A DNA stretch of 55,286 nt from a virus, in IMG/VR virus record IMGVR_UViG_3300027896_000052, positions 1 to 55,286 of that record, one strand, 5' to 3'. Position 1 is the first letter of the stretch. Every line of letters starts with the position of its first letter. Made by a program: the position numbers and the translations under genes. The notes under the pieces were generated by a model. The model did not search any database, was not told the origin of the DNA, and saw only the letters and a list, made by a program, of their open reading frames with translations. Shown one piece after another: positions 2,052-53,825 of this stretch.

Positions 2052-4772
2052 CTATAATTTTTTTCCGAGGGCTCCGTCCGCGAAAACGCCCGTTGTGTCG
2101 CAAAGATAAGCATATACCCGCTCCTCGGGCCCGGCTGTGCTCCAATTCGACGCCATCGTCGGATCACCCAAGATGAAAAGTCCGGTCAGAATCCAGGTCA
2201 GATCCGAGCAGACGACTGCGATTTCCATCTGTTCGAGGTCGACCGTCAGGCTTTCGATATACATCGGCCGGCCCGCTTCGCCGGCTCCGATCGGGCTGAC
2301 TCCAAAGGGGTCCTGCAGTTCGATGTTATCCAAAAGGTCCAGGGAGTCCAGCCAATCGATTGATAACGTGAATCTGAATTTGTTATCGCCGAAAGCATAG
2401 CGGTCTAGCTCCTCGGCTGCTCGGATGGCGATCCAAGCCGCGGAATCCGTCCAGGGGAATGTCGCCGGCGACGTCGGCTCGAGGACCGCGTCCAGGATCG
2501 ATTGCGAGGACAAGTTTTCGAAGGTATCCCCGCCCTGGCAGAGATTCGCCGTCGGTACGAAATCCCAGGCGGCCTTGATCCGGTTGAAAGCGACGTTGCT
2601 CACATATTCGCGCCCGGGGTGATCCTTGCAGTCGAGCTGGGCCCATACCGTCTTGAAATTTGAAAGGCTGGCGTAATCCTTCCGGGCGATTTTTATTTTC
2701 CCGATCGCGGTGAACGCGGCCAGGATCCCGAAGGTGTAGAGGAGCTGCCTGTAATACTCCTCGCATGCGGATTCTGTCGTTAGAGCCAGCTTCCCGATCG
2801 TCCCAAAGCCGGCCGCGGCGAAGGTTGCCGCCAGCGTGTCGAAACTCGCGGTTTCCAAATGGGAGACCGGGACCCCGACCAAAAATTCCAGGAAATATTC
2901 GAGGACCCGGGCAGGATTCTGGACGTAGCCGTTGACCGAATCCCAGGCCGGGAAAGAATAGCCCCGGCAGTTGAAGGTGACCTCATTGTCCCCCTGGCTT
3001 CCGGTGAAGGTGATCAGGGTCTGGCCCAGGCCGTCGTATGAAATGGAATAATCCGCTCCGGCAGCCTTTAAGATCCCGGCGGAATAAACCTCATCGACCG
3101 CATAGAGGCTTCCCCGGGCTGCCAGGTAGATGAAGTTCGCGGTATCGACGCAGGGAGCCTTTATCGCTCCGGGTTTGTCTCCGGCAGTCCAGGAAAAGGT
3201 CCCCAGAAGATTGGGCTTCGGGGCGTTGATATCTTTCTCATAGATGTTCGGAAATTCGGCCGCGGTGCAGCGGTATTCCGGAAGTTCCTTTTGAAAATAT
3301 TTCCAGCCGATATCTCGGAGTTTTGCAGAAAAGACCGGGCCGTCGAGGTTGTAATCATCCACGATGAATTTCGCTAGGGCGTGTTTCGATGCCTCCGTTT
3401 CATCGGACCATAAATAATAAGCCCCGACCCCCAAATTTTTCGCGTAATTGGAAAAGAGAAGACTCGAAAATTCCCGATCGACATTCGTCAACTTGATGTC
3501 GGCGTCGGAGCCCAGAAAGGTCCCGAGCCCGGATGAAACGCTCCGGGTGAAATTGCTGAGGCTCAAGATCCGGCCATCATAGAAAACCAGCGGGGCCCGC
3601 ATGTCGATCGGGGCATAATATTTTTTGATCGGCCATTCCCAATCCGTCCCCGGAATCAGAATCCTTTTCCCTCCTCCGCCGACCTTGAGTTGGAGCCGGT
3701 TTCCGATCGTCATGGCCCCGGTCCCGGCGTCGACTCGCCAATCGCCGGCGTAGGCCGAGGGCGTATTGGTAGAATTCAATTTTGTCGAAAGCCAGGCTTT
3801 TTTGAGATTGAGGACGTAGGTCCCGACCGGAAGAGCCGGCATCGAGGCGATCGTGATTTGGCTATTCGAATCGATTACGAAAGTCCCGACGGCTCCCGGG
3901 ACGACCCAGCTTCCGCCGGCTTCCTCGAGGGCAAAGGTCCCCTCGCCGGCGGTCCCTATAAAATTGATTTCCGTTACGTAATCCTTCCAGCCGCCGCCGC
4001 CTGGCGTCGAGCTAAAGGCATTGTTGGCTGCATTCGTGATTTCCGTGTCATCGTTATCGAATCCCAAGCCGGTCAGGACCAGGGCATCCCCGCCGGCTGG
4101 GGCGACTTTCAGCTTTGAAAGCGAATTGACGCAGGGGTTAAAAAATCGGACCTTAATTTCGGAGAAAATCGCCCGGACGATCAGTTTCGTTCCCGCTCCG
4201 ATGTCGCCGCCGTTCGGCTGGCTCATTCGGACGGTCAGGCCCATGTCGAAAAAATAGCCCTGAAGCATATTGTCCTGGGTCCCGAGCCCGGCTTTATTCG
4301 GGCAGCCGTAGAGGGTATAAACCTTCGGCATGTCGGCGAAAACAAAGAGCTTCCCGTCCTCCCATCCGCCGGTCCCGGCGAGGGGTGGGTAGGAGGTCCA
4401 ATCCTTCCCGGTGTCATAGACCTGGCCCGTAAGGACCGCCATGTTCGATTTGTCCCCCGGCGTGTACTTGGCCGTTGTCCGGACGGTCGAAATCGTGTTG
4501 AGTTTCCCCGAGGTGTTCGAGTCGACGGAATAAGCCGCCGTCCACCAGAAGTCGATTGCTTCATCGGCTCCGGCCAGGAGGGCGTAATCCGCCGCGGAAG
4601 GCTTGGCGATCCCGTATTCCCAAAAATCCCAGGCCGCGCTGATGTTCTTTTGAAAGCCGATATAAAATCCCGGGACCACATAGGCCGCCCAATCCGCCTT
4701 TGCGTTCCCGGGCGGATTCGTGACCAGGGCGGAGGCGTGATCGATGGCCGTGAAAGATCGGTACGGAATCAT
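2052..4772 (-). CDS. Large tail-tip / baseplate hub protein
   Basis: 906 residues, overlapping the previous gene by ATGA. In order after the tape measure it takes the place of the siphovirus tail-associated or hub protein. Residues about 215-330 resemble an IPT/TIG immunoglobulin-like domain (GGDALVLTGLGF, later PALPVGTYVLNL). The second half (YYAPIDMRAPLVFYDGRI, a DNVEL-like IELQDPFG stretch, YIESLTVDLEQMEIAVVC) resembles the ring-forming part of hub proteins. Probable structural protein at the tail tip that carries the fibre proteins encoded next. No lytic motif seen. Confidence 0.7.
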   Translation of the reverse strand: MIPYRSFTAIDHASALVTNPPGNAKADWAAYVVPGFYIGFQKNISAAWDFWEYGIAKPSAADYALLAGADEAIDFWWTAAYSVDSNTSGKLNTISTVRTTAKYTPGDKSNMAVLTGQVYDTGKDWTSYPPLAGTGGWEDGKLFVFADMPKVYTLYGCPNKAGLGTQDNMLQGYFFDMGLTVRMSQPNGGDIGAGTKLIVRAIFSEIKVRFFNPCVNSLSKLKVAPAGGDALVLTGLGFDNDDTEITNAANNAFSSTPGGGGWKDYVTEINFIGTAGEGTFALEEAGGSWVVPGAVGTFVIDSNSQITIASMPALPVGTYVLNLKKAWLSTKLNSTNTPSAYAGDWRVDAGTGAMTIGNRLQLKVGGGGKRILIPGTDWEWPIKKYYAPIDMRAPLVFYDGRILSLSNFTRSVSSGLGTFLGSDADIKLTNVDREFSSLLFSNYAKNLGVGAYYLWSDETEASKHALAKFIVDDYNLDGPVFSAKLRDIGWKYFQKELPEYRCTAAEFPNIYEKDINAPKPNLLGTFSWTAGDKPGAIKAPCVDTANFIYLAARGSLYAVDEVYSAGILKAAGADYSISYDGLGQTLITFTGSQGDNEVTFNCRGYSFPAWDSVNGYVQNPARVLEYFLEFLVGVPVSHLETASFDTLAATFAAAGFGTIGKLALTTESACEEYYRQLLYTFGILAAFTAIGKIKIARKDYASLSNFKTVWAQLDCKDHPGREYVSNVAFNRIKAAWDFVPTANLCQGGDTFENLSSQSILDAVLEPTSPATFPWTDSAAWIAIRAAEELDRYAFGDNKFRFTLSIDWLDSLDLLDNIELQDPFGVSPIGAGEAGRPMYIESLTVDLEQMEIAVVCSDLTWILTGLFILGDPTMASNWSTAGPEERVYAYLCDTTGVFADGALGKKL

Positions 4773-5539
4773 AAAAGCGTAATCCCGCGGGTCATGACCT
4801 TGAGTTTTATCGACCAGCTCCTAAGTTCGCCGCCGGGCCCGTAGACGACTCGTTTTGACGTTGGGCTTCCGACTACTTTTACCAGGTAGACATGGGGAAG
4901 TTTTTCGTCCGGGATGAAAACGAAGCGGCCGGCCGCTCCCTGAATTCCCTCCATGAAGGTCTGCAGCTCATCGATCGTCGCCGGGTCGATTTGGTTTGTC
5001 AAGGAAAGTTCGAAACTTTGGCCGATGCCCAGATAAGTGCTCCAATCCTGGCCATAGGTCGTTACCTGTTCGACCTGGAAAAATTCGGGTGAATCCGCCC
5101 GGCCCGGAGTGATCCGGACCTTGCTGAATTTCGCCCAGGTTCCGAGCCAGGCGACCCCGATCTCTGGCATGGCCAGATTGGTCGGGTCATTTATGAAAAA
5201 CCTCCACCAGCGTTCGTTCTGGCTGAAACGGAGAGCCTGGTCATGCTCTCGCCAAGGCATCTGCCAATTGTATACGAGACCGCCTCCCCAGGCATTCGAG
5301 CTGTTCGCCTGGACCCGGGCCGTCGCTGCGGCCGTGAGGTTGTGATTGAAGAGGGCGGCCAGGGTGACGCGCGTTGCCGCGGTGAGATCGACGACGATGC
5401 TCTGGTTTGTCTTCGCTTGGAATCGGAAGGGCCGGCTGGGCCGGTTATCGTACAAAAATTCCTTTACGTAGAGCGGATCCTCCGTCGAAACCGAAGAAAG
5501 CGTATAGATGTCGATCAGGTTCGTTGTGCTATAAATCAT
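4769..5539 (-). CDS. Distal tail protein-like
   Basis: 256 residues starting MIYSTTNLIDIYTLSS, placed directly after the tape measure; the upstream stop is 1 base before the start. Position and size fit a distal tail (Dit-like) or tail-tip connector protein. The sequence has many aromatic beta-type segments (RPFRFQAK, WWRFFINDPTNLAMPE, RSWSIKLKVMTRG). It overlaps the hub gene by ATGA. Assignment is mainly by gene order. Confidence 0.65.
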   Translation of the reverse strand: MIYSTTNLIDIYTLSSVSTEDPLYVKEFLYDNRPSRPFRFQAKTNQSIVVDLTAATRVTLAALFNHNLTAAATARVQANSSNAWGGGLVYNWQMPWREHDQALRFSQNERWWRFFINDPTNLAMPEIGVAWLGTWAKFSKVRITPGRADSPEFFQVEQVTTYGQDWSTYLGIGQSFELSLTNQIDPATIDELQTFMEGIQGAAGRFVFIPDEKLPHVYLVKVVGSPTSKRVVYGPGGELRSWSIKLKVMTRGITLL

Positions 5540-20714: not shown

Positions 20715-23111
20715 TCAGTCTGCTTTTTTGGTCCAAACCGCCGCGGCCTTCCGCGCGGTCCCGCCCATGGAGAAGCCCGTGAGCTTTCCGCTCTGGACTT
20801 CCCCCCAAATCTCGGGATCCGTGACCTTGATCATCATCCACCACGAGCCGGCTTTAATGATCTCTGTCCCTTTTTTCATGTCGGCTTCGGGTTGGAAGCT
20901 CTCCAGGATCGGGAAATAATGGGCCGTCCCTTTGTGCATGACCTTGATCCGATTCGGATTTTTGGCGTAGCGTTCCATGAAGGAATACATCGCCGCGGTG
21001 ATCTCGGCGGCCGTGGTCATGTCGCCCTGGGTATCGACGGCGTTCGGTTCGTAGATGATCCCCCCGCAGATCTGCTGGGCGGCATCGACTTTCCGGATCT
21101 GGAAGACGAGGCGCTTCGAGAACCAGGCCCGCTTCTCCGTGCCCTCTGCCTTTTTGAATTCGGGCGGCTCCTTCTCAAATTCCGCATAATGGGATTTCAG
21201 GTGGTCATAGATCCCGGATCTGTCGGCGACCGGGACGGAGATCTGGGTGCGTCCGCCCTGAAGGGCCGCCATCGCAGCCGCGACGCCCCGCCAGACCGCC
21301 TTCAGACCGTCGGCGTGGTGATGGGGCAGCTTGTAACTCCCTTTGTTGTCCGGAGCTGCAGGATCGACCCATGCACAGATCTTCGCCAGCGTCTCGACGT
21401 CGGCAGCCGCGACCTCGGCGCCAGCGTCCCAGGCCTCAGCCTCCGGAGCCGTCCCATAATCGTGATAGGGGATGACGCCGGCCGCGGCTTTCCCAAAAGG
21501 CTTGGGGGCATGAGCCTCGGCCCAGGTCTTCGCCTTCTCCTCCGTCCATTTGTTCTTGTCGAAGAGGTAGGCCTGGATGTGGGTCGTCCCGCTATTGTCG
21601 GCGGTAAGGTTCCCGATGACGGCTTTGATCCCAAGATCTGCCGAGAGATCGATTATCCGAAACGAATCTTGGGCGAAATCGGCGGGATCCGTGATGCGGA
21701 CCCGGACGTATGCATCGGTCGTCCGGGCCTCGAATTTGTGCATTTTCACCATCTTACGGGCTTCGATTGCTCCATCTGCCCAGGCCGCCTCCTCCTCGAT
21801 CAGATCGAGAACATGTTGAGATGATGGCAGGGTCCGCTTTTTGATATGGCTATCGACCCAGGCTTGGGCGGCTTCCATCGTCCATTTCGTTTTGTCGAAA
21901 AGGTAGGTTGCGATCTGGTGATCGGTCACATCCTCGAGGGCTTTGATCCCCTGGGCCTCGCTCAGGATGATCGTCCGGATTTCATGACCCGCCGGGATGG
22001 CCCGGACCGGGATCCGGCGCAGGGTCATGGTCGTTTCGGGTTTGGCGATGACTTCCTGAGCCGCCTTGTCCGCGCGGAGCCGGTCTCGGAATGTCGTCTC
22101 TTTCATCAGTTCGATATTTTCTTTCGTGTCCATGGATGCCTCCCGTTTTTCGGTTTGAATATCATCTTGCGGGATGTTCTCACCAGACCCGCCAGGATTT
22201 CCTTCATCGATCGCCAAGGCCGAGGGATCGATCTTTTCGATCGGATCCTCATCCTTGCCCTTGCCCAACTCGACCGCCGGATCCGGACCGCCGCCGGGTG
22301 AGTTCGGCTTATTGCAGATGCCGCCGACCGGCTCCTCGTCGCCGCAGATAATACATCGGGGATGGCCATTCGGATGCGTCCACTTCGCGGGCTCGAATTT
22401 GTGTACGCCTTTGGCTTTCGCGCTCTTTGCGCTCTCTCGGATGACGGCGCTCTCGGCTTCGAAGCTCGCTTTTTCCGCCGGCGTCAGGGCTTTCCCGATC
22501 TCGAATTCAGCGTTCCCGTCGCCTCCGTTGCCGGGTACGATTTTATTCGTCGGTTTGGGCCGGAGGACTAGGTCGAAGACCGGCATATGGCTTCTGCCAC
22601 AGCCGGCGTGTTCGTAGGCAACCTGGATATCCTTCCCCGTTTCCTGCAGGGCCTTGGCCAGGCAGGCTTCGAGGGTCGCCGAGCTGTAGAAGATCCCGCG
22701 GTCTGTCCTTCCCGCCTTGATGACCACCTGGACGGCCGAGGCCTCCCGGGGATTTTTAATGAAGTCCCCGGTGATCGCCACGTAATCGTTCGCCAGCACG
22801 ATGTCGCCGAGCCCGGGAACATCCAGGCTCCAGAGCCCCTTCCGGACGACCCGGTCTTTCACCAGGCGATCGATCTCGCGTTCGCCCGAAATCGGAAGTC
22901 CGCGGCGAGTCATCTCAACCCGGAGCTCGACGTACCGGCTCAAGAAATCGCATTTCGCCATTCCGCGGATTTGATCTGTCGCCGGGTCATGGAAGAATCG
23001 ATCGAAAAGCTGGACGAAGCGGAAACGAAAATCTCGCAGCTCTCCATCATCCATGGCCTTGAAGGTCTCGGCCTTCGCTTCTTCGATGAGGTGTTTAAAT
23101 TTGGCCGGCAT
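20715..23111 (-). CDS. Multidomain prohead protein with C-terminal XkdF-type protease
   Basis: 798 residues. The C-terminal 120 residues match putative phage protease XkdF: GGIIYEPNAVDTQGD, a His in RIKVMHKGTAHYFPI, GSWWMMIKVTDPEIWGEV and the serine in LTGFSMGGTARK. The His and Ser are the likely catalytic pair. The N-terminal part (about 1-230) has a separate fold, then a zinc-knuckle-like CIICGDEEPVGGICNKP. Two copies of a repeat (YLFDKTKWTMEAAQAWVDSH and YLFDKNKWTEEKAKTWAEAH) lie in the middle. Probably cleaves scaffold and capsid arms during maturation. Unusually long for XkdF. Confidence 0.78.
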   Translation of the reverse strand: MPAKFKHLIEEAKAETFKAMDDGELRDFRFRFVQLFDRFFHDPATDQIRGMAKCDFLSRYVELRVEMTRRGLPISGEREIDRLVKDRVVRKGLWSLDVPGLGDIVLANDYVAITGDFIKNPREASAVQVVIKAGRTDRGIFYSSATLEACLAKALQETGKDIQVAYEHAGCGRSHMPVFDLVLRPKPTNKIVPGNGGDGNAEFEIGKALTPAEKASFEAESAVIRESAKSAKAKGVHKFEPAKWTHPNGHPRCIICGDEEPVGGICNKPNSPGGGPDPAVELGKGKDEDPIEKIDPSALAIDEGNPGGSGENIPQDDIQTEKREASMDTKENIELMKETTFRDRLRADKAAQEVIAKPETTMTLRRIPVRAIPAGHEIRTIILSEAQGIKALEDVTDHQIATYLFDKTKWTMEAAQAWVDSHIKKRTLPSSQHVLDLIEEEAAWADGAIEARKMVKMHKFEARTTDAYVRVRITDPADFAQDSFRIIDLSADLGIKAVIGNLTADNSGTTHIQAYLFDKNKWTEEKAKTWAEAHAPKPFGKAAAGVIPYHDYGTAPEAEAWDAGAEVAAADVETLAKICAWVDPAAPDNKGSYKLPHHHADGLKAVWRGVAAAMAALQGGRTQISVPVADRSGIYDHLKSHYAEFEKEPPEFKKAEGTEKRAWFSKRLVFQIRKVDAAQQICGGIIYEPNAVDTQGDMTTAAEITAAMYSFMERYAKNPNRIKVMHKGTAHYFPILESFQPEADMKKGTEIIKAGSWWMMIKVTDPEIWGEVQSGKLTGFSMGGTARKAAAVWTKKAD

Positions 23112-36227: not shown

Positions 36228-36794
36228 TTAGTCGGCGAGGCTGGGGACCGCATTGAGAACGGCGCGCGCGAGGGCCTCTTGGTTCACGGGATCCGCGAGG
36301 AAGGCGGCCCGCTCGTCGTTCGTTATGAATTCGAATTCGATGAGGACTGCGGGCATCGAGGTGTTCCGCAGGACGTAAAAATTCGATTCCTTGTCCGGAT
36401 CTCCATCATCGTAATCGACCCGCGCCGGCGTATCGGGCATGACATGCCGGAGCTCGCCCCAGATCGTTGTGGCGATGTCATCGGCCGCGGTTTGCCCAAT
36501 CGATGTCCAGACCTCGAAACCCAGGGCCTTTGGATTTTCGGCGGCGTTGATGTGAAAGCTCAGGAAGAGATCGGCGCCCCATTTCTCGGCCAGCGCGACG
36601 CGGGCCTCGAGGCTGACGTAGTCGTCGCCTCGGCGGGCGAGGGCGACCGCATATCCGACGGCGATCGCGCGGGCCTCAAAGGCCTTGGAGATGGCGAGGG
36701 TGAGCTCCGATTCTTTCCGCCCGGTGTGGGCGTTGACCGCTCCGGGGTCGCTGCCGCCATGGCCCGGGTCCACAAAGATTTTTTTAATTTTCAT
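36228..36794 (-). CDS. Endolysin: N-acetylmuramoyl-L-alanine amidase (Amidase_3)
   Basis: 188 residues; start at 36794, 13 bases after GGGAGG. Amidase_3 zinc ligands are visible: His12 in VDPGHGG, Glu30 in RKESEL, His81 in LFLSFHINA, and the catalytic Glu153 in AVLIEFEFITN. The domain fills the protein; no cell-wall-binding or signal sequence. It cuts the amide bond between muramic acid and the stem peptide. Located just after a terminator and its own promoter, so lysis genes can be turned on separately. Confidence 0.93.
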   Translation of the reverse strand: MKIKKIFVDPGHGGSDPGAVNAHTGRKESELTLAISKAFEARAIAVGYAVALARRGDDYVSLEARVALAEKWGADLFLSFHINAAENPKALGFEVWTSIGQTAADDIATTIWGELRHVMPDTPARVDYDDGDPDKESNFYVLRNTSMPAVLIEFEFITNDERAAFLADPVNQEALARAVLNAVPSLAD

Positions 36795-36822
36795 TCCCTG
36801 CGGCCTCCCTTCCGTCGGCCTA

Positions 36823-36851
36823 AAGATACACGCGTCTTTGAGTACAGTCAA
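36823..36851 (-). promoter_or_regulatory. Promoter of the lysis gene set
   Basis: Minus-strand TTGACT (36851-36846), 17-base spacer, TATCTT (36828-36823), about 28 bases before the amidase start. It directly follows the long hairpin terminator. One mismatch in each box to the strongest promoters here. Confidence 0.75.
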
Positions 36852-42010: not shown

Positions 42011-42700
42011 CTATCCCTCGAGCAGGCGCCCGAGATTCGTTTTGCGGCGGATCTCTATCTTCATGTTCTGGAGCCGGCTCACGAAATCCCGGACCTTATC
42101 CGCCGTCGGTTCCTTCAGACCACATGCCTTCGAGTCCGCCCCGATCGCCACGAATTCCGGCCCGATCGCGCGGATCCATTCCGCGAGGATAGCGGGATCG
42201 AAATCCATGATGGGCTCGATCGTCACGAAGCGAGGAATCCTTCTGGTCTTCATCGCCATTATCCCCTCATATCTACTGGACGGCTGGGGGGCCTTCCCTT
42301 CTTCGATATCGCGGTTCGTTTCGATCGTCGTCCCGAATAAAACATCTTCAGGGAAAAATCCTAGATACTCCGCGGCCCGCTCCGGATTTTTGCTCTGCAG
42401 GACGTACTTGTTTCCCGGGAATTCGAGAAGATGTTTCAAAATCTTGAGGATGAAATTTTCCGGGACGTCGGCCGCGAAGAGGTCGTTCATGTGCTCGACG
42501 AAAATTGTATTCCCGGTCCCATAATTGACCCGGAATTCATTTTCGAGAAGCCGGACCGGCCCGGTATACTTTTTCGGCCGGCCCCAGCGAGCCTTCCCGA
42601 CATAACAATAGGGGCAGGCATGAGAGCAGGCGCCGCCGAGGTGGGCGTGGGTGTGCGAAACCCAATCATACATGTTCCCGCGCGATGGATTTAAGGGCAT
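42011..42700 (-). CDS. Radical SAM protein, phage Gp37/Gp68 (DUF5131) family
   Basis: 229 residues. The 4Fe-4S motif is CSHACPYCYVGKA (CxxxCxxC), followed by IFVEHMNDLFAADVPENFIL, KILKHLLEFPGNKYVLQSKN, GTTIETNRDI and RFVTIEPIMDFDP, the recognised run of DUF5131 proteins. IGADSKACGL lies near the C terminus. Complete domain. Radical chemistry on an unknown substrate, perhaps nucleic acid; unusual to keep in a 54-kb genome. Confidence 0.9.
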   Translation of the reverse strand: MPLNPSRGNMYDWVSHTHAHLGGACSHACPYCYVGKARWGRPKKYTGPVRLLENEFRVNYGTGNTIFVEHMNDLFAADVPENFILKILKHLLEFPGNKYVLQSKNPERAAEYLGFFPEDVLFGTTIETNRDIEEGKAPQPSSRYEGIMAMKTRRIPRFVTIEPIMDFDPAILAEWIRAIGPEFVAIGADSKACGLKEPTADKVRDFVSRLQNMKIEIRRKTNLGRLLEG

Positions 42701-43149
42701 TTCGCATCGCCTTCTTTCGTATCTTCTTCGGCTTGCTCATCTAGCGGGGCGACGGATCTGATAAGCGCGCGGAGCTTGCTTATTTTTCCATCCAGATAAT
42801 CCCCGAAAAGAAATTTCTGATCGGGGTTGGGGTTATCCAGCACGATTCCCCGATATTTGGATGCAAGATGGACAATATAATTAAACTGCGCCAGCAGTTC
42901 TTTCTGTTCATCTAGCTGGATCCACCAGGCCGGAATTTTGAATTTATGCCGAGCGAATTCCGCTAGAAATTTCAGGGCCGAGATCTCCTTCAGTTGCTTC
43001 TCAATGATCTCGAGATGGGCCTCCCTTTCTTTCAAGAATCGGCCCTTCAGGCGGTCCATCTTGCCGACGGCGAAGACCGCCGTGATCACGACTCCGACGA
43101 TCGCTCCGATTAGGAGCAGGATCCACCAGGCCGGGTTTTGGGCGATCAT
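42691..43149 (-). CDS. Membrane-anchored coiled-coil protein
   Basis: 152 residues. N-terminal helix WWILLLIGAIVGVVITAVFA anchors it; then KGRFLKEREAHLEIIEKQLK is a coiled coil, with a soluble helical domain to the end. Overlaps both neighbours. Unknown. Confidence 0.65.
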   Translation of the reverse strand: MIAQNPAWWILLLIGAIVGVVITAVFAVGKMDRLKGRFLKEREAHLEIIEKQLKEISALKFLAEFARHKFKIPAWWIQLDEQKELLAQFNYIVHLASKYRGIVLDNPNPDQKFLFGDYLDGKISKLRALIRSVAPLDEQAEEDTKEGDAKCP

Positions 43150-44390: not shown

Positions 44391-44569
44391 GTCCCCGCTT
44401 GAGCCGAAAGAACGATGATCTCCGATATCGTCGCCGGCTCGCCTTTGCCCTTGGCGATTTCCAGGATCCTGATGTCCTCAATCCCGGTCGTCAGGGAAAG
44501 AATCCGATAGAGATCGGGCCTGGATTTCGCCTTCGCCAAAAGAGCCTTCCGGAGGGCTTCGATTTCCAT
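44387..44569 (-). CDS. Unknown small protein
   Basis: 60 residues from ATG 44569, which overlaps the stop of the hydrolase-like gene (TGATG). Helical start (EIEALRKALLAKAKSRPDLY), then ILEIAKGKGEPATISEIIVL. Not recognised. Confidence 0.62.
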   Translation of the reverse strand: MEIEALRKALLAKAKSRPDLYRILSLTTGIEDIRILEIAKGKGEPATISEIIVLSAQAGT

Positions 44570-45942
44570 CACTTGGGCCCCCCGGCGTCCGGATACTTCC
44601 TCCGGATCTCGGCTCCCCAGAGAGTCGTAGCGATCAGGGCGTAGACGTCGAGGCTTTCGGGGAGAATCTGGTCCGGGGCCTCGCCATCGGAGATCTCGCC
44701 GGGCAGGAATTCGATGTGATCCAGCCGGCGCTGGGAATACTGCGGCGTCCCGTACTTCGCCCACCAGGCCGTGATCAGCTTGAGGCGTTCCGCGGGCGTT
44801 GCCTGGCACCTGGGGTATTTCGTGCAGTAGCCCTTCTTGCCTTCGACCCGGACCGTGGCGCCGTCATCGGAATAGCCATAGGCCCGGATGTCGCTCCCGA
44901 AGGCCGGATCGAATTCCTCGACGAGGGCCTGCCAATGGACCTGCATGACGGCGTCCCGGATCCCGAAGATCTTGGAGACATCGGGCGAAAGCCCACCATG
45001 GATCCAATGCCCGGTATTCGGGGCCGCGGAGAACGGCGTCGGGAGGTAGCTGGCCAGATGGAGCTTTTCTCCCAGAGGAATGACGACTCCTCGGACCCAG
45101 GCTTCCATGTTCGGACCCATGGCGTCGTTCGGATACATGAGTTCGTTTCCGATCCCGATCCGATGCCCGCCGGAAGCGGGGAGGAGCTTCATGATCCGGT
45201 CCGCCCATTGGAAGAAATATCCCCTCGCCCGGTCGCTCGAGTCGTAAATGCCGTTCACGCTGTTCACGTTCTTGGCCCAGGGCGAGTTCGCGGCGTCGCA
45301 GTTGTCGAAGAGGTCGAAATGGATCCGGACATGGTAGGGCATCAAGACGTCTCTGAGCCGCTCGATGGCCAGGTCGAAGGCCGGATTCGGAACGTCCAAG
45401 TTGAAGGACGAGGGGTCCCTGGTGTACGGCGCCGTCGTCGTGAGGATGGCCTGATAGGCGGGGTCGTCCCAGCACATCATGATCCGGACGTAATCGATGC
45501 CGGCCAGGGAGATCTTCTGGGCGAAGTTCTCGAGTTGCTTATCCGAATAATGGTGGAGGAGAACGTGGCCCGAAAGCCAGGCGACCGTCATTCGGGGCAT
45601 CCAGTCGGGCTTCGGCGTGTCGGCCGGATAGGTCTTCGCGCAGGTAGTGCATTGAGTCGTCGGCTCCTCCCCGACCTTGAAAGTTCCCATGATCTTCTGC
45701 AGACAGAAGGGGCCTGGGAGTAGACCGCTGACCCGGCAGACCTCGACTTCGACGACCTGGCCGGGATCCGTCTTGTGAAGCTCGCAGAGCGGCGGGTCGA
45801 CCCAGACGTAATACTGGCGGGTGATCTTGGTCGGGCACCAGGGCCGGGCGGCCTGACCGCTATCGGCGCAGACCGTGACCTTGTGCGTCTGGCAGCAGAT
45901 CCCGAGTTTTTCGCAGAGCCATTTCTTCGTGCTGTTTTTCAT
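44569..45942 (-). CDS. Cys-rich TIM-barrel glycoside hydrolase-like protein
   Basis: 457 residues; the start at 45942 is chosen for its AAGGAG site (an in-frame ATG lies 39 bases upstream). Residues 1-110 hold two Cys repeats, VCADSGQAARPWCP and VCRVSGLLPGPFCL, each followed by P..x..C..H/C, resembling the C-terminal Cys motif of class A penicillin-binding proteins. From about 120 a clan GH-A-like (alpha/beta)8 barrel follows: IDYVRIMMCWDDPAY, HVRIHFDLFDNCD, HRIGIGNELMYPND (Asn-Glu acid/base) and RRLDHIEFLPGEIS (candidate nucleophile). No signal peptide. Polysaccharide or peptidoglycan cleavage is plausible. Confidence 0.68.
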   Translation of the reverse strand: MKNSTKKWLCEKLGICCQTHKVTVCADSGQAARPWCPTKITRQYYVWVDPPLCELHKTDPGQVVEVEVCRVSGLLPGPFCLQKIMGTFKVGEEPTTQCTTCAKTYPADTPKPDWMPRMTVAWLSGHVLLHHYSDKQLENFAQKISLAGIDYVRIMMCWDDPAYQAILTTTAPYTRDPSSFNLDVPNPAFDLAIERLRDVLMPYHVRIHFDLFDNCDAANSPWAKNVNSVNGIYDSSDRARGYFFQWADRIMKLLPASGGHRIGIGNELMYPNDAMGPNMEAWVRGVVIPLGEKLHLASYLPTPFSAAPNTGHWIHGGLSPDVSKIFGIRDAVMQVHWQALVEEFDPAFGSDIRAYGYSDDGATVRVEGKKGYCTKYPRCQATPAERLKLITAWWAKYGTPQYSQRRLDHIEFLPGEISDGEAPDQILPESLDVYALIATTLWGAEIRRKYPDAGGPK

Positions 45943-45952
45943 GATATTCTCC

Positions 45953-46135
45953 TTATTTTCCTCGGTCCTCTTTCCCGTCATAAAAAAGGCTGATTCCTAA
46001 TTCTCCTTCGACCCGATGTTTGTACTTTTTGGCGTGAATCTTTGCTATTGCCTGGGCGTTTTTATAACTATATGTTTCCCATCCGCAATCTTGGCACCTC
46101 ATGATCGCGTGAACGACCCCATAGCCGTATTTCAT
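45953..46135 (-). CDS. Small zinc-finger-like protein
   Basis: 60 residues from ATG 46135 (TGATG overlap; a TTG one codon earlier is possible). CQDCGWETYSYKNAQAIAKI with HAKKYKH gives a C-x2-C plus His pattern like C2H2-type single fingers found in phages. Unknown role. Confidence 0.65.
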   Translation of the reverse strand: MKYGYGVVHAIMRCQDCGWETYSYKNAQAIAKIHAKKYKHRVEGELGISLFYDGKEDRGK

Positions 46136-53132: not shown

Positions 53133-53825
53133 ATGGTATACTCATCCCAGATGAAAAGCATCAGCGTCTATGGTCTTTATTCCACAGAACAGGGGACGTC
53201 TGTCGTCCGCTATGTCGGGCAGACGAAATATCCCTTAAACCAGCGGCGGAATGCTCATGTCAAACGGTCCCTGGGAAAAGCGGCCATTACTCATCTGCAT
53301 CGCTGGGTCCGGGATGTCTATTCGCGAGGCTTCGAGGTCAAGGCGATCCTCTTGAAATCCGGGGCTCATTGGAATTCGGATGAAATTGAATTTATTAGAA
53401 AATTCCGAGCGATGGGGATGGCCCTCACGAATTCCACGGACGGAGGGGAGGGGTGCTTGAATCCATGCCCGGAAATGAGGTCCAAAATCAGCGGATCATT
53501 AAAGGGAAAGCCCCTCCCCTTGAAGACCCGGCAGAAGATGAGTGAGGCTCACAAGGGGAAGGCCCGGTCCCGTGCGATATGCCGAAAAATTAGCAAGGGT
53601 TTGAAGGGCAATAAAAATGCCCTTGGCCGGGTATGCTCCCAGGAAACGATCCGAAAATTGAGCGAGGCCCACAAGCGGGAAAACCTGTCGGCCGAAACCC
53701 GCCGCAAGAATAGCGAATCACATAGAAGGGAAAACTTGTCGGCCGAAACCCTCCGTAAGCGGAGCGAGGGCTCAAAGGCTATGTGGAAACGAAAGAAGGG
53801 GAGGGACTCCGATGGTCGCCCTTAA
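53133..53825 (+). CDS. GIY-YIG homing endonuclease with NUMOD3 repeats
   Basis: 230 residues from ATG 53133 (or Met7 at 53151). The catalytic domain has VYGLYSTEQGTSVVRYVGQT (GIY-YIG variant, YG-L ... YVG), NQRRNAHVKR and HWNSDEIEFIRKF with the catalytic Glu. From residue 110 come about five NUMOD3-type DNA-binding repeats (SGSLKGKPL, MSEAHKGKA, LSEAHKREN, NSESHRREN). The last two repeats are nearly identical (RRENLSAET). It lies free-standing directly beside the variable tail locus, whose divergence begins 10 bases after its stop. Likely a mobile selfish gene. Confidence 0.9.
   Translation: MVYSSQMKSISVYGLYSTEQGTSVVRYVGQTKYPLNQRRNAHVKRSLGKAAITHLHRWVRDVYSRGFEVKAILLKSGAHWNSDEIEFIRKFRAMGMALTNSTDGGEGCLNPCPEMRSKISGSLKGKPLPLKTRQKMSEAHKGKARSRAICRKISKGLKGNKNALGRVCSQETIRKLSEAHKRENLSAETRRKNSESHRRENLSAETLRKRSEGSKAMWKRKKGRDSDGRP
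53134..53142 (+). promoter_or_regulatory. Possible extended -10 promoter of the endonuclease
   Basis: TGGTATACT fits the extended -10 form (TGnTATACT) but there is no convincing -35. Transcription would begin near Met7 (53151), giving an almost leaderless message. Freestanding homing endonuclease genes often have such internal promoters. Weak evidence. Confidence 0.35.

Follow-up and report, generated by a model that had tools for sequence, protein, structure and literature searches.

Glycoside hydrolase families of clan GH-A use Glu residues on strands 4 and 7, and the Cys module of penicillin-binding proteins (PBPs) is extracytoplasmic. In the class A PBPs (PBP1A and PBP1C) this motif is C-terminal; literature listings and the openings of abstracts give neither a function for it nor a description of its fusion to a barrel. 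Among viruses, a soil viral GH5 protein is an endomannanase of demonstrated activity (PMC6786970), and gp095 of Erwinia phage S6 is a phage GH5 enzyme reported to have both catalytic Glu residues and choice-of-anchor D domains (PMC9544554). The window analyzed here, the whole 55,286 nucleotides of IMG/VR virus record IMGVR_UViG_3300027896_000052, encodes a protein that is likewise of the phage barrel glycosidase type, as predicted from its sequence; whereas both described enzymes have recognizable GH5 domains, the window protein does not, and it has Cys repeats instead of choice-of-anchor D domains. It forms part of a small set of proteins from uncultured viruses in which a glycosidase-shaped barrel is joined to a PBP-type Cys module. 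We see about an even chance that it is a phage glycosidase-type enzyme whose barrel acts on a host-envelope glycan while its PBP-type Cys repeats dock at the cell wall.

Gene Model and Core Family

The window protein is encoded by an open reading frame (ORF) of 457 aa that has exactly the extent given in an earlier note on this DNA (Table 1), and third-position GC in this frame is 0.83, a strong, coding-type value. Searches with the whole protein against Pfam (even at E 10), NCBIfam, PHROGs, PDB sequences, and phage and plasmid records returned no match, and the combination of modules, which the earlier note did not recognize, is indeed absent from Pfam, NCBIfam, and PHROGs. The protein has no hydrophobic signal segment, in agreement with the signal peptide previously reported as missing.

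Table 1. Positions of the window protein and its parts in the window
Feature	Position	Strand	Description
Ribosome-binding site AAGGAG	45949..45954	-	Six bases before the ATG
Whole ORF, 457 aa	44569..45942	-	Leader, two PBP-type Cys repeats, and predicted (beta/alpha)8 barrel; ATG at 45942, stop at 44569-44571
Leader MKNSTKKWLCEKLGICC	45892..45942	-	Short, basic, aromatic, Cys-containing
Cys repeat 1	45775..45879	-	Residues 22 to about 56-58, VTVCADSG..WCP..LCELH
Cys repeat 2	45640..45747	-	Residues 66 to about 101-103, VEVCRVSG..FCL..QCTTC
Barrel domain (predicted)	44593..45621	-	Residues 108-450 (~340 residues), from AlphaFold2 models of two members
E267 of GNE motif	45142..45144	-	End of strand 4, candidate acid/base
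D359-D360	44863..44868	-	End of strand 7, where GH-A enzymes have the nucleophile Glu
E411 (HIEFLP)	44710..44712	-	Strand 8, invariant carboxylate, candidate alternative second catalytic residue

Full-length relatives are present in four other uncultured viruses. Three of them, on IMG/VR contigs (L001, L003, and L004), are 37-42% identical to the window protein, and the fourth (L050) shares 27% identity with it along the whole length (E 1e-36). Other scans for the family returned only the L001, L003, and L004 contigs again, and no bacterial homolog of the window protein was found in genome-contig scans or plasmids. A scan with the pattern YGIGNEF gave 16 stretches, all of them unrelated.

Predicted Barrel Fold

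AlphaFold2 models built with four aligned sequences each were obtained for the window protein (mean pLDDT 60.5, pTM 0.63) and for L004 (mean pLDDT 61.0, pTM 0.68), and the same eight strands appear in both, strands 6 and 7 falling in low-confidence stretches of both models. The best PDB match of the window protein model in Foldseek is a GH5_18 enzyme (E 2.6e-6), the top match in BFVD is a phage GH5-domain protein, and GH5 mannanases and mannosidases head the VIA rows, among them tomato endo-mannanase (1rh9; Z 18.4, rmsd 3.8 A, 292 residues aligned) and Cellvibrio exo-mannosidase (1uuq; Z 19.0, rmsd 3.9 A, 299 residues aligned). Since the scores of many further barrel families differ from those of GH5 by no more than a few Z units, the VIA comparison tells the fold and general class rather than the substrate. 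These results suggest, with modest confidence, that beyond its repeats the window protein is an eight-stranded (beta/alpha)8 barrel of GH5-like shape; the TIM barrel proposed earlier has the support of both models. Unlike GH5 and clan GH-A enzymes, the window protein has no GH-family sequence match, and profile comparison with two GH5 proteins from plasmids gave no significant alignment. Matches to WD40 PDB profiles (best E 1.5e-7) are sums of many weak repeat matches within one 55-residue stretch and were set aside; the weak matches to antibodies, a mutase, DUF4704, and mL43 are regarded as fortuitous.

Conserved Carboxylates

When the window protein is aligned with L001, L003, L004, and L050, all five proteins have Arg153 (strand 2), Asn266-Glu267 (strand 4), His336 (strand 6), Asp360 (strand 7), and, on strand 8 and beyond it, Glu411 and Glu416; Asp359 is present in four of the five and is Asn in L050. 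Like GH5 and clan GH-A enzymes, the family has an Asn-Glu pair at the end of strand 4, as in the GH-A acid/base (G-N266-E267, in both models), an Arg on strand 2, and a His on strand 6. The Glu of the GNE motif, singled out in the earlier note as the acid/base, is retained in all five full-length proteins. In the models, however, strand 7 departs from the GH-A arrangement: it is followed by S-D-D-G (S-N-D-G in L050) with no Glu, in a region of low local model confidence, whereas strand 7 reads V-G-E-F-G or T-E-F-G in two comparison GH5 proteins. The invariant strand-8 Glu and the N-terminal Cys repeats are further differences from GH5 and clan GH-A. Because Asp stands in place of the strand-7 nucleophile Glu, we do not assign the protein to GH-A or GH5; the earlier label of a GH-A-like barrel is supported for the general shape but not for this residue. 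Though not placed in these groups, the protein may well work like one of their members; the equivalent of the nucleophile could be D360 or, by the GH5 E-x-G pattern, equally D359.

As the strand-7 Glu is absent, the barrel could also be inactive, serving as a lectin-like, glycan-binding wall anchor or disturbing host wall synthesis. The replacement of Glu by Asp on strand 7 in four of the five proteins and the Asn-Asp of the fifth are in keeping with such a pseudoenzyme, as is the presence among the VIA fold matches of beta-Klotho, a GH1-like fold described as lacking a catalytic Glu. On the other hand, five proteins that diverge to as little as 25-27% identity share E267, H336, D360, E411, and E416 without exception, and such invariance is unusual for a lost active site; we consider a pseudoenzyme unlikely.

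PBP-Type Cys Repeats

A profile of eight class A PBP tail motifs (from seven plasmid records and the phage record MT836215.1) finds two domains in the window protein with E 4.2e-13 among 504 sequences, comprising all window ORFs of at least 60 aa and the family; the two PBP-like Cys repeats described earlier are both recovered. None of 1,000 shuffles of the N-terminal 110 aa reaches the real score. Among the relatives the profile gives E 1.2e-5 for L001, 0.15 for L003, and 0.84 for L004, and the shuffles reaching the real score (1,000 each) number 0, 1, and 0, respectively, where shuffles under the report threshold were counted as lower (listed shuffles: 881 for the window protein and 735, 823, and 780 for L001, L003, and L004). 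The PBPs of the profile were recruited with a 37-aa typed consensus that contained ten window-protein residues, so that their recruitment was not blind. This consensus matched 18 plasmid records at E<=10, 11 of which are annotated as PBP1A or PBP1C; in three of the seven unannotated records (H15, H17, and H24) the motif and a transglycosylase domain share one open frame, as judged from position differences divisible by three. Searched against 72,556 plasmid records, the unaltered 39-aa second repeat finds nothing at E<=10 except a PBP1C, and that weakly (E 6). In a solved PBP1A (7u4h) the corresponding stretch is a Cys-less version.

In phage records the typed consensus had four matches at E<=10, three of which fall in a capsid protein of one small virus. 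The fourth, MT836215.1, encodes an ordinary class A PBP when its ORF is read; this record (L030) is labeled UNVERIFIED Bacteriophage sp., carries the PBP with its Cys motif at 2727-5348, and is probably host DNA.

The window protein shares with the C-terminal motif of PBP1A and PBP1C the pattern C..SG......C(P) ... F..G..P...C..H with the same spacing. In contrast to class A PBPs, it has neither a transglycosylase domain (no match to PF00912 in the window record) nor any other Pfam match, and its Cys module lies N-terminal to the barrel, the family having one to three copies. The module pattern (C1..SG, C2(P), F..G..P, C3..H/C) is found by the profile, stands out against the shuffles, and recurs in all 12 repeats from eight distinct viral proteins, each of which keeps C1, C2, and C3. 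The fourth position is His at +3 in eight repeats, Cys at +3 in two, and His at +4 in two. Such an exchange of His and Cys at one position favors a metal ligand over a disulfide; the repeats are probably small zinc-binding modules, an odd number of Cys together with a His/Cys position being typical of zinc sites.

Further Carriers of the Cys Module

IMG/VR was scanned with the canonical PBP motif, not the barrel, and six stretches were found, five of them in frame; because L053 and L054 are identical, these five represent four distinct proteins. The pattern requires strict spacing and misses the window protein, L001, L003, and L004, so the scan is a sample and not a census. The remaining stretch, L049, lies in antisense orientation inside a tail gene and was excluded. 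All the in-frame proteins bear an NE-containing, barrel-like domain and none is a PBP. One of them is L050, the full-length homolog, which has two Cys repeats and a lipobox-type signal and is predicted to be a lipoprotein. L051 has one repeat, L052 three, and L053 one at its C-terminus; alignment to the core family with hhalign gives E 0.087, 0.068, and 0.032, respectively. For L051-L053 the barrel was recognized by eye, and sequence comparison shows homology in the barrel for L050 alone. No GH profile matches any of the four, and no relative of them was found in 50,697 phage records at E<=0.1. A hydrophobic signal segment is missing in seven of the eight distinct proteins, and the lipobox signal, absent from the window protein, occurs among the relatives only in L050; the claim of a missing signal peptide thus holds for the window protein and does not extend to this relative.

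Leaders like that of the window protein form the N-termini of L003, L051, and L052, a similar stretch lies at the C-terminus of L053, and blastp alignments begin at residues 1-3. The form common to these leaders is (F/I)RKW-x-C-K-x-L. It is also seen that L053 contains, at 3-482 on the minus strand, a reading frame in which VPLTSDVSL recurs many times in tandem.

Gene Neighborhoods

The window gene has a replisome organizer/DnaD-like protein and a Cas4-like exonuclease upstream and RuvC downstream, as expected from its earlier description as lying in the replication region, and a replisome organizer overlaps the end of the L003 gene. Other relatives have a different setting. Some 12 bases separate the start of the L004 gene from a C1q-like gene before it, which is preceded by an internal-virion-protein-like gene, and L051 has upstream a C1q-like gene with matches to families of virion structural and tail fibre proteins (the C1q matches fall below the Pfam cut-off), with a Cas4-like exonuclease nearby and, about 6 kb further on, a weak match to an Rz-like spanin. 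The gene next to L052 is also a weak Rz-like spanin match (E ~0.002 for the spanin matches), with an Amidase_3 upstream, and the second gene after L001 encodes a DPBB lytic transglycosylase (RlpA-like), followed at a greater distance by an M15 peptidase and terminase. No telling neighbor was seen for L050 and L053. Altogether four of the eight distinct proteins are encoded beside virion or lysis genes and two beside replication genes; since relatives adjoin virion-structural or lysis genes, the replication setting stands for the window and is not typical of the group.

These neighbors bear on a second possibility, namely that the protein is a virion-associated depolymerase or receptor-binding enzyme whose Cys repeats fix the barrel to a tail tip or fibre, the barrel trimming capsule or exopolysaccharide at adsorption. 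The genes preceding L004 and L051 point in this direction, and phage GH5 enzymes attacking surface polysaccharide are known (PMC9544554). However, replication genes surround the copies in the window and L003, the Cys module belongs to bacterial PBPs and is not a known tail adaptor, and the lipoprotein-type signal of L050 is ill suited to virion assembly in the cytoplasm, so that a virion enzyme of this kind seems improbable. Least probable of all is a host-derived auxiliary metabolic glycosidase for intracellular or secreted carbohydrate use with merely inherited Cys modules, which would suit the missing signal segment and the endomannanase activity of the soil viral GH5 protein cited above, but which is at odds with the lack of bacterial homologs in genome-contig scans and plasmids and with the position of the Cys module outside the cytoplasm in PBPs. 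An ordinary endolysin was also rejected: the window phage already has an Amidase_3 (36228-36851), and no cell-wall hydrolase profile matches the window protein.

A Candidate Envelope-Directed Glycosidase

The reading of the window protein as an enzyme acting on the host envelope is favored by the PBP-tail profile, the GH5-like models and the GH5-domain match in BFVD, the invariant carboxylates, the His/Cys exchange in the repeats, the in-frame motif-scan matches lying on NE barrel-like proteins and never on a PBP, the virion or lysis neighbors of L004, L051, L052, and L001, and the lipobox signal of L050. It is disfavored by the lack of a GH-family sequence match, a model pLDDT near 61, the missing strand-7 Glu, the lack of a signal segment in most members, the replication neighbors of the window gene and L003, barrels recognized by eye in L051-L053, weak spanin matches, and the Amidase_3 already present in the window phage. 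From this evidence we infer metal binding, localization, substrate, and activity as follows. Synthesis would take place in the cytoplasm, with no signal peptide, and the protein would leave through the holin lesion or travel in the virion, while L050 would be exported as a lipoprotein; the Cys repeats would attach the protein to the wall or to proteins bound there, and E267 on strand 4 would be the acid/base, its partner carboxylate being Asp359/360 or the strand-8 Glu411.

A wider proposal, which we regard as rather doubtful, is that uncultured phages have fused a host peptidoglycan-synthase module to barrel glycosidases several times and at either end, docking them where class A PBPs work, and that the core family uses a new carboxylate arrangement (strand-4 Glu with strand-7 Asp or strand-8 Glu). 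If this were true, the new arrangement would found a new glycoside hydrolase family. Recurring as the one constant piece among viral barrel proteins that otherwise differ, the Cys module offers a clean, soluble probe of its binding. The core family may represent a new family of glycoside hydrolases in which the carboxylate pair is unusual, with a possible use against host envelopes.

Other Features of the Window

The head genes of the window phage lie at 20.7-30.9 kb and the tape measure at 5.5-8.8 kb. At 20715-23111 (minus strand) lies a 798-aa protein whose XkdF-type protease domain is confined to residues 669-788, after a long N-terminal part. The interval 42691-43149 encodes a one-TM, coiled-coil-like protein, and just downstream, at 42011-42700 (minus strand), lies a DUF5131/radical-SAM-like protein. 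An ORF with a NUMOD3 motif (53133-53825, plus strand; E 2.7e-4) is encoded on the other strand from the mapped phage genes and is possibly a homing endonuclease.
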